From assembly GCA_024278415.1 (NCBI GenBank), contig JAJRTI010000003.1, forward strand, positions 1 to 5,314: a DNA stretch of 5,314 nucleotides. Reading direction: 5' to 3'. The position numbers and the translations under genes were made by a program. Positions 2,812 to 4,788 of the stretch are shown here, piece by piece (position 1 is the first letter of the stretch; each line of letters begins with the position of its first letter). This DNA is from Planctomycetota bacterium. Its GTDB lineage: Bacteria; Planctomycetota; Brocadiia; JAJRTI01. A model generated the notes under the pieces. That model saw only the letters and a list, made by a program, of their open reading frames with translations, searched no databases and was not told the origin of the DNA.

Positions 2812-3150
2812 CCGGTGCTGGCGCATCCGTATCGGCTCTAAGCCATTGTAGCGGCCCGGGCCAAGACCGACAAGCTGGATGCGGCCTTGTTCGCACTGTT
2901 GCTGCGGCCGGTCTGATTCCCCCACGCGTGCACTCCAGCCGGGCCGTTCCAGCAGCTTCGGGGCGTGGCGCGGCGCCGGCTCACGTGGTGGGCCGGCAAA
3001 GCCAAAAACCAGGTGCGGTCGTTGCTGGCGTCTCGCAACATCCGTCCCCCGGTCGAGGCGCTCTTCTCCAGAGGGGGTTTCCCGAGGCGGAGCCCTTGGC
3101 GGCTCTCCACGGCATTGGAGTATACTCGGCCTTGTTGATCGCAGCCGAAT
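2812..3150 (+). pseudogene. Decayed IS110-type transposase fragment
   Basis: No intact frame exists, but plus-strand translation shows a transposase-like trail. From 2812 one frame reads PVLAHPYRL, a TAA at 2839, then AIVAARAKTDKLDA (the KTDKLDA block is typical of the DEDD domain of IS110-family transposases). It continues to a TGA at 2914, then through an LRGVARRRL...KAKNQVRSLLA stretch like the family's helical linker to PPVEALFSR (ending about 3069). A second frame then gives EPLAALHGIGVYSALLIAAE (3090-3149), matching the C-terminal PGIG...A..LLAE motif of the same family. Two stops, a frameshift, a deletion of the usual spacing between LF and GIG, and missing ends mark it as dead. It was recognised from remembered family motifs, not from a search. 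It fills most of the spacer between mtnA and the divergent hydrolase gene. Confidence 0.75.
3096..3126 (+). promoter_or_regulatory. Possible sigma70-type promoter for the hydrolase gene
   Basis: TATACT at 3121-3126 is a good -10-like hexamer, with TTGGCG at 3096-3101 as a partial -35. The 19-bp spacing is long and the -35 is imperfect. It lies about 50 bp before the ATG at 3175 and inside the transposase relic, so if real the hydrolase is driven from old insertion-sequence DNA. Confidence 0.3.
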
Positions 3151-3174: not shown

Positions 3175-4386
3175 ATGCCCACCATGTCACAGCAACTCAG
3201 CCAGCCAGCCATCAAGGACCTCGGCGAGCCACAGCACTTGGAGCCTATCTTCGCCGACGGCCAAGAGCCTACGGTCGACGCGTGGGAAGGCCGTCTGAGG
3301 CCGAGACTCCTCGAACGCTGGGCCGCGGTCATCGGCGAGCCGTCGTTTGGCGACTTCGACCGGGCCGCGGAAGTCATCGAACGGTTCGAGGCCCCATTCT
3401 TCAACGGCACGCTCATTCGCCAGCCGACCGGGCCAGGGCTCTGCCAGACGCTCCTGCTCATGGAGCCCAAAGACACGCCGGAGGGACGCGATGGGGAAGC
3501 CGCAATCCCTCCCTCCAAGGGGGGGAACCCAAGGGGGGGTAGTCCCGACGGCAGCCGCTCGACCCTCCCGTGCCGACCCCCCTGTAGTCCCCCCTGGAAG
3601 GGGGGACGCGGATCGCATCGTGCCCCCGGAGCACCACGCCCCGGCGCGATCGTGCCGTTCTACCATCCCGACCTCATGGCCGGCTTCGACCTGGAGACGC
3701 GCGAGCCGAAGACTGAGCGGCCCAACGTGCACTTCGGCCGGCATCTCGTGCAGCAGGGCTACGTGGTCGTGTGCACGGAAGCGTTCCCATACAACACCGT
3801 GCCCGAGCCGGAGGATAGCGCTGGATTTGCGTGGTGGCAGGCGGGAGCAGACAAGCTCCTTGCAGACAACCCCAACTGGACCGGCATCGGCAAATTGATC
3901 TGGGACACAAGCCGCGCAGTGGACCTGCTGCTGGAGCAACCGCACGTCGACGCGGAGCGCATCGTCTGCATGGGCCACTCGCTCGGCGGCAAGATGGCCT
4001 TCTACACGGCCGCGTTCGACGAGCGCATCAAGGCCGCGGTCGCGTCCGACTTCGGCATTGGGTGGAGCTTCACGAATTGGGACGCACCGTGGTATTTTGG
4101 CGGACAGATCCGCGACGGAGGCTTCATGCTCAACGGCCACCACGCGCTTGCGCTCCTCGCGCCGCGCGCGTTCCTCGCCATCGCCGGCGAGGCCGACCGG
4201 CCCGAGAGCTGGCAGCACATCAACGAGGCGAAGCGGGTGTACCGCCTCTACGGCAAGGAGGACGCGGTGGGCTGCTTCCTGCACATGACCGGCCATCAGC
4301 CAACGGACGAGTCCATCGTCGCCGCGTACAAGTGGCTGGCGGAGCAGTTTGGTTTGCCGGAGCGGGAGTGGAGTTTGGGGGTGTGA
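3175..4386 (+). CDS. Alpha/beta hydrolase, dienelactone-hydrolase type, with an internal palindromic-repeat insert
   Basis: Predicted 403-aa serine hydrolase; substrate unknown (esterase-like activity on an ester, lactone or acylated sugar is the general expectation). No signal peptide is evident, so probably cytoplasmic. Residues 1-100 hold an N-terminal helical part and first strands (QTLLLMEPKD); the core resumes at AIVPFYHPDLMAGFD (about 158-172). The nucleophile elbow is GHSLGG with Ser269; likely catalytic partners are Asp341 in IAGEADRPESW and His374 in HMTGHQP. Between residues 105 and 146 lies a Gly/Pro/Arg-rich stretch encoded by an in-frame palindromic element (see the repeat at 3506-3607). 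Without it the protein would be about 363 aa and the two strands would be joined by a short loop. The frame is open throughout and the triad looks intact, so the product may still be active. It is divergent from mtnA and stands alone; no pathway link is visible. Confidence 0.85.
   Translation: MPTMSQQLSQPAIKDLGEPQHLEPIFADGQEPTVDAWEGRLRPRLLERWAAVIGEPSFGDFDRAAEVIERFEAPFFNGTLIRQPTGPGLCQTLLLMEPKDTPEGRDGEAAIPPSKGGNPRGGSPDGSRSTLPCRPPCSPPWKGGRGSHRAPGAPRPGAIVPFYHPDLMAGFDLETREPKTERPNVHFGRHLVQQGYVVVCTEAFPYNTVPEPEDSAGFAWWQAGADKLLADNPNWTGIGKLIWDTSRAVDLLLEQPHVDAERIVCMGHSLGGKMAFYTAAFDERIKAAVASDFGIGWSFTNWDAPWYFGGQIRDGGFMLNGHHALALLAPRAFLAIAGEADRPESWQHINEAKRVYRLYGKEDAVGCFLHMTGHQPTDESIVAAYKWLAEQFGLPEREWSLGV
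3506..3607. repeat. Palindromic REP/MITE-like element inside the hydrolase coding region
   Basis: Two similar units face each other. The left unit (3506-3540) is a C-rich arm, CCAA, seven G, AACCCAA, seven G, T. The right unit, read on the minus strand (3607-3576), is six C, TTCCA, six G, ACTACA, six G, T. Each unit is a small C6/G6 hairpin followed by another G-tract, and the two can pair with each other around a spacer of about 35 nt. The octamer GGGACGCG occurs at 3483-3490 and again at 3603-3610, exactly 120 bp apart, which is 40 codons. It could be a target duplication or a recombination footprint. The translation across the element has no stop. Confidence 0.8.
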
Positions 4387-4738: not shown

Positions 4739-4755
4739 GGGGTTCTCCGGCTCAC

Positions 4756-4788
4756 AGCGAAAACCGAACAACGACAACCGAAAACCCA
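4756..4788. repeat. Degenerate 6-8-bp repeat between two minus-strand genes
   Basis: Read on the minus strand the spacer is a run of variants of GTTTTCG, GTTGTCG and TTGTTCGG, ending with GTTTTCG. It lies between the stop of the right-edge gene (4790) and the antitoxin start (4738). It is poorer in order than the other arrays here but of similar unit size and position. Confidence 0.5.

Follow-up and report, generated by a model that had tools for sequence, protein, structure and literature searches.

The alpha/beta-hydrolase gene in the window (here, the whole stretch of 5,314 nucleotides that was analysed) contains two REP-type palindromic repeats in inverted orientation, which very probably (a probability of roughly 0.85) entered a loop of the hydrolase by in-frame insertion. 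The insertion is real on present evidence. Inverted C/G hairpin units read without a stop inside the hydrolase had been reported in a preliminary description of this DNA. We confirm two inverted units in an intact open reading frame (ORF), which has no internal stops between 3175 and 4386 and is translated straight through the repeat. The features are as follows.

3175..4386, plus strand: alpha/beta-hydrolase gene (acetylxylan/glucuronyl-esterase-like), 403 aa, from the ORF list, homologues and Pfam
3504..3607, no strand: inverted pair of repeat units with the tags inside ("TT" layout), from alignment and unit search; the DNA boundaries are approximate
3504..3539, minus strand: unit A, degenerate, read from the sequence
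3540..3576, no strand: 37-bp spacer between units A and B, read from the sequence
3577..3608, plus strand: unit B, from pattern and unit search; the layout recurs in other genomes

The insert encodes approximately residues 111-145 of the hydrolase. Unit B opens with a C6T run (3577-3583), followed by a GTAG tag (3584-3587) and then by the hairpin, an 8 bp stem (3588-3595/3599-3606) around the loop GGA, with CG after it to give an ACG end. Unit A has a C7 run (3533-3539) and a 9 bp stem (3506-3514/3518-3526) that includes one T.G pair and encloses a 3-nt loop. Its tag position reads GGGT, without GTAG. The C6N5G6 hairpin occurs once in the window, at 3589-3605, and the unit CCCCCCTGTAGTCCCCCCTGGAAGGGGGGAC, allowing up to three mismatches, only at 3577-3607; neither was recovered in 200 dinucleotide shuffles, which argues against a loop that became palindromic by chance. 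As single-stranded DNA, 3483-3613 folds no more stably than dinucleotide shuffles of itself (z -0.71; 47/200 fold at least as well), because the shuffles retain the C/G-rich composition. Five of the six frames of the insert pair are open; the mean is 3.4 for shuffled sequences and 3.6 for 104-mers taken elsewhere in the window. The element has no match in Rfam at gathering score. A 17-bp direct repeat (94% identical) is present at the right end of the insert (3605-3621) and within the conserved domain (3949-3965), in different frames.

The hydrolase scores above the Pfam cut-offs of the glucuronyl-esterase, prolyl-oligopeptidase, dienelactone-hydrolase and acetylxylan-esterase families, and H268, S269 and H374 are invariant in 19/19 sequences (alignment A1). 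Its closest named relatives belong to Candidatus Zipacnadia/WS1 (59-64% identity), and one Planctomycetota record is 61% identical. The homologue search found 780 proteins, of which 120 were listed: the protein itself and 119 others. Whether the insert is missing from homologues had been raised as a check, and in the alignment it was found in none of the 119 listed. This includes P0002, which is 77% identical to the hydrolase, lacks the insert and shares both flanks (GRDxEAA and GSHR). P0002 is known as a protein, so the comparison is at the protein level: it reads GRDAEAA-AG-GSHR where the window protein reads GRDGEAA-[35 residues]-GSHR. Residues 111-145 thus replace two residues of P0002, a net gain of 33. 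Compared with 5.8 billion proteins, the translated insert matched itself alone, with just four candidates passing the word and length filters.

An expanded loop is common to P0002 and the window protein and is missing from the other 118 listed homologues; the repeat therefore entered a loop that was already tolerant. In the AlphaFold model of the hydrolase (mean pLDDT 83.1, pTM 0.84), residues 102-149 (pLDDT <50) are predicted to be a disordered loop between strands 89-98 and 155-162, inside a confident fold. The shared expansion is also what could be expected if the segment were an ordinary or slowly grown loop of the family. That reading is extremely unlikely, given the shuffles, the absence of the insert from every one of the listed homologues and the recurrence of units so arranged in other genomes. 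Sequencing errors are common in long C and G runs, and the sequence is known from one contig, so an assembly chimera or misassembly at such a site was considered. We regard it as improbable, since the net length is a multiple of three, both flanks match P0002, the rest of the gene is intact and a separate in-frame case exists in a heparinase-like gene (below).

The preliminary description had bounded the element by the octamer GGGACGCG as a 120-bp unit. The octamer is present at 3483 and 3603, and 106 pairs of matching 8-mers no more than 150 bp apart occur in the window. The right-hand copy overlaps the end of unit B, and ACG follows the G run in 33/70 related copies from other genomes. We rejected an octamer-bounded 120-bp duplication because 8-mer pairs are common, because of the overlap with the unit end and because P0002 retains the left flank GRDxEAA, which that model would remove. 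The octamer boundary looks coincidental.

Upstream in the window, a pair of siroheme-decarboxylase-like (NirDL-type) genes that overlap each other occupies 137-1082, and yqeY and an mtnA-like gene come after it. Among the matches listed, MtnA identities in Armatimonadota are at most 60%. Between mtnA and the hydrolase, 2842-2913 has a weak match to an IS110 transposase (PF01548, E 0.032; 14.5 bits where the cut-off is 29) and may be a decayed IS110 fragment; 2917-3132 gave no match in the family search. Short arrays of 7-8 bp units (CGTATTG, GATTACT, ACTGCGTC and CGAAAAC) are located at 9-69, 1611-1661 and 4754-4786, the first of which forms an inverted pair. Synteny of the window genes was not seen around hydrolase relatives in 84 loci, with four neighbour proteins tested.

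The idea that the units resemble nothing known is not supported: their layouts are those of GTAG-tagged REPs (Di Nocera, 2013, PMC3733652) and of intrastrand-triplex repeats (Holder, 2015, PMC4666352). In the available text of the former paper, GTAG-tagged REPs have a 5-13 bp stem and an adjoining GTAG tag and are often found as oppositely oriented pairs, 20-100 bp apart. The stems of units A and B, with their 3-nt loops, fall within the GTAG-REP limits (stem 5-13 bp, loop 2-20 nt). The window units differ from these REPs in an additional C run before the tag, a comparison made by structure and not with a family consensus. Unit B is grouped by structure with the GTAG-tagged REPs; unit A is without the tag, and neither is classed as a RAYT-associated REP. 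Hairpin-forming repeats of this type generally lie between bacterial genes. GTAG and CGTC REPs are also known inside genes; over half of these inserts are pairs or groups that encode 20-30 aa, and it has been suggested that some are perhaps neutral, in flexible linkers or loops (PMC3733652, available text). The main text of that paper does not name Armatimonadota (the string "Armatimonad" is absent).

The C run upstream of the tag is also the reason why unit B could be written, by its layout, as a Py-Pu-Pu intrastrand triplex. Its minus strand reads C6, a 5-nt loop, G6, a 6-nt loop and G6, the arrangement of a class II intrastrand triplex, for which the limits given in the available text of Holder (2015, PMC4666352) are Py-Pu-Pu runs, a 6-15 nt stem and loops of 1-6 nt. 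The TM/PIT triplex repeats of that paper share with the window units the three-run layout, the many copies and the inverted pairs, but the consensus differs. The TM_ECO consensus CCCTCNCCCN3-6GGGNGAGGGN3GGGNGAGGG is not matched, the window runs being C6/G6 without the TCN/NGA core. The triplex motif of E. coli MG1655 is stated to be always intergenic, and "GTAG" is absent from the main text (PMC4666352).

Other small repeats are read within genes as well. Rickettsia palindromic elements, by their description, are small palindromic repeats in frame in protein genes, like the window units, and RPE-4 and RPE-6 are CGTC-type repeats according to the available text of Di Nocera (PMC3733652). The enterobacterial RU elements with open frames are also small mobile repeats read in genes (Delihas, 2007, PMC2759123, available text); unlike the window units, they are 103-168 bp long, MITE-like and found in enterobacteria. 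A MITE origin was examined through target duplication, which is absent at the heparinase-like empty site, but that site concerns a different unit and gene. The proposal of a protein-invading repeat stands in that the units were inserted, are in frame and have relatives in some genes of other bacteria. As a claim for a new kind of repeat it goes too far, since GTAG-REP pairs within genes have been in print since 2013. What is new is a GTAG-REP-like unit with a triplex layout that is translated within genes, in bacteria for which we found no such report.

We looked for related units in 291 genomes from the phylum that contains G001. This phylum was taken to be Armatimonadota because G005, G009, G010 and G012, whose records bear that name, belong to it. 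All repeat counts below refer to other genomes, not to the source organism's own. A loose three-run pattern, CCCCCTNNNNNCCCCCN{2,8}GGGGG, in which the tag is unspecified, matched 43/291 genomes; the reversed pattern, used as the control, matched 12/291. Raw matches, which include overlaps more than once, reached 54, 50, 44 and 34 in G238, G223, G191 and G286, with 0, 1, 2 and 0 for the control. Tags other than GTAG occur in G223 and in part of G238. The control equalled or exceeded the matches (matches and control, respectively) in G224 (6 and 6), G291 (3 and 3), G016 (2 and 3), G056 (1 and 1) and G007 (1 and 1), though the listed copies of G224 are clear GTNG units. Some single matches (e.g., in G030, G108 and G160) look like chance C-rich DNA. 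None of the six genomes that contain a close named relative of the hydrolase (G001, G002, G004, G005, G008 and G011) matched the loose pattern. The tight pattern CCCCCCTNNNAGGGGGG was found in 2/291 Armatimonadota genomes, below its reversed control (3/291). Among 294 sampled Planctomycetota genomes, a GTNG version was found in two, one of them with nine copies, and the control in none.

We compared 70 copies from 60 fetched loci (L115-L174) in 13 genomes (G012, G016, G082, G189, G190, G191, G193, G196, G206, G224, G226, G238 and G259); since the loci are the first-listed places, these copies were not drawn at random. GTAG is the tag in 31/70, as in unit B, and another GTNG in 20/70 (GTCG 9, GTGG 8, GTTG 3); the rest have CAA (7), ATAG (4) or others (8). 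After the G run, 54/70 have ACG or ACA. The third run is as long as the C run of the stem in 57/70 copies (Spearman 0.74, for which a p-value would be no test because the copies are related). GTNG hairpins number 122 in nine copy-rich genomes (6-39 per genome), against one for the control. Five of them read the same palindrome in antisense; of the 117 distinct hairpins that remain, 104 have CCCCT directly upstream, a share to be read with the fact that the nine genomes were picked for having the three-run pattern. Ten pairs were found among the fetched loci: five head-to-tail, four with the tags outside and one with the tags inside, so the layout of the window is uncommon in this sample. The whole 104-bp pair had no match among the fetched sequences. 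Single units are open in five frames in the window (unit B), five in G226, six in G191, four in G238 and five in G224.

Other palindromes, of the CCTCCCCGC-GCGGGGAGG type, adjoin a number of GTNG units (L135-L171), which suggests mosaic clusters. Two viral contigs (L081:3958-3979 and L082:2230-2251) have in common GTAGTCCCCCCTATAAGGGGGGGAC, a hairpin resembling that of the units, inside a different, longer palindrome. Plasmid matches were limited to two weak 29-base Sphingobium hits, judged to be chance.

The clearest other in-gene copy, though without a GTNG tag, is in a heparinase II/III-like protein of G232, where a 14-residue insert, TPPNPPLANGGIGG, is an untagged relative of the unit, in frame. 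The protein falls below the cut-off of PF07940; its homologues carry this domain. The insert is missing in 39 of the 40 listed homologues aligned, and the fortieth, P0121, is the same protein. P0122, 88% identical, is without the 14 residues, and the DNA of G235 provides the empty site, with a net difference of 42 bp and no target duplication.

Four of the 70 copies lie inside frames with some coding support (one in L132, one in L169 and two in L172). In G190 (L169), the unit lies in a 1182-aa frame; N6_N4_Mtase precedes the unit, and DUF559 and an intein C-terminal match follow it, while the Pfam intein model is below the cut-off. In G224 (L172), two tandem units share an open frame with DUF559 and a Hint match below its cut-off, and by eye, given the resemblance to L169, this looks like a methylase-intein of the same kind. 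The in-frame units of both (L169:1661-1689 and L172:2002-2111) have a similar place, in the apparent N-terminal intein part of a DNA methylase. This position, seen in two genomes, is possibly a tolerant site. The unit of G012 (L132) is inside a 548-aa frame with no known domain, with a coding-like codon composition as its sole support; another copy, close to the start of this frame, was left out. A weaker case is G187 (L098): the linker of a DUF1156 methylase that holds the unit is variable, and there is no clean empty site in comparison with relatives. L098 and L113 are search loci and do not belong to the 70 copies. The remaining 66 copies were screened by open-frame length, with Pfam for a chosen few, and we claim no rate of in-gene copies. 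L157, L163 and L146, where the frame through the element has no Pfam match, and L161 and L162, where domains are only downstream of the element, were not counted as in-gene cases.

How the units spread may be outlined as follows. The unit plan is a C run, a short tag and then a C/G hairpin. Copies would insert widely, and most in-gene insertions would be lost. Survivors would be those with a length that is a multiple of three, an open frame and a site in a flexible loop, and the window site would be a loop that had already expanded before the insertion. Most frames of the units are open and the DNA is therefore easily read through, giving Pro/Gly/Arg-rich loops, which bears on retention and not on benefit. 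There are two candidate carriers: a RAYT-like enzyme that works on single strands in trans, and replication errors provoked by the hairpin or triplex.

In the first case the REP would be mobilised by a RAYT: as has been proposed for REPs of proteobacteria, a TnpA-REP tyrosine transposase would recognise the GTAG together with the hairpin and transfer copies as single strands. The tag, stem and loop sizes agree with the available texts of Nunvar (2010, PMC2817692) and of a 2021 study of TnpAREP (PMC8266576). Y1_Tnp genes are present in 18/21 genomes searched, but the Y1_Tnp model includes ordinary IS200/IS605 transposases, and G196, with six GTNG copies, has no Y1_Tnp match. The DNA-level empty site without target duplication is also consistent with such mobilisation, though that unit is untagged. 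However, among 30 fetched Y1_Tnp loci (of 39 places), 20 of the 30 being from genomes carrying the repeat pattern, none has a three-run hairpin within a distance of up to 1.5 kb. No locus of the 30 is flanked by the hairpin in the manner of a RAYT-associated REP (REPtron). A looser GTNG-hairpin scan of these loci gave five weak matches in four loci, none with C runs. Mobilisation by a RAYT is a tentative explanation that we hold at less than even odds.

The second would dispense with a transposase: triplex- or hairpin-driven errors of replication or repair would copy the unit, a process that has been suggested in connection with TM motifs and genome instability. The Py-Pu-Pu layout (stem 6, loops 5 and 6), the agreement between third run and stem noted above and the head-to-tail pairs (5/10) are consistent with this, and in E. 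coli the TM motifs are not near mobility genes (PMC4666352, available text). Scattered copies with a preferred GTNG tag, however, require dispersal and sequence recognition, and slippage provides neither. In vivo footprinting also gave no support for stable triplex formation (Holder, 2015, PMC4666352, available text). We consider this route doubtful. Similarly doubtful is a broader reading in which a triplex-capable, GTAG-tagged family of Armatimonadota and at least one planctomycete would spread with no RAYT linked to it and, owing to its mostly open reading frames, would repeatedly enter protein genes as Pro/Gly-rich loops, including intein-like methylase regions.

The in-frame insertion of an inverted REP-type pair into the hydrolase links two repeat classes that are described apart in the texts we examined, the GTAG-tagged REPs and the intrastrand-triplex repeats. 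Among the open-access papers examined, we found none that treats GTAG REPs as triplexes (one, in its available text, uses "triplexes" only in a general list), and no report of REPs in Armatimonadota in the available open-access texts. The C/G-run variety of in-gene repeat seems to be undescribed. The related copies add translated REP-type repeats in Armatimonadota. Together with the hydrolase, they are natural examples in which selfish DNA can be tested as a source of protein loops, and for one of them the empty site is known at the DNA level.
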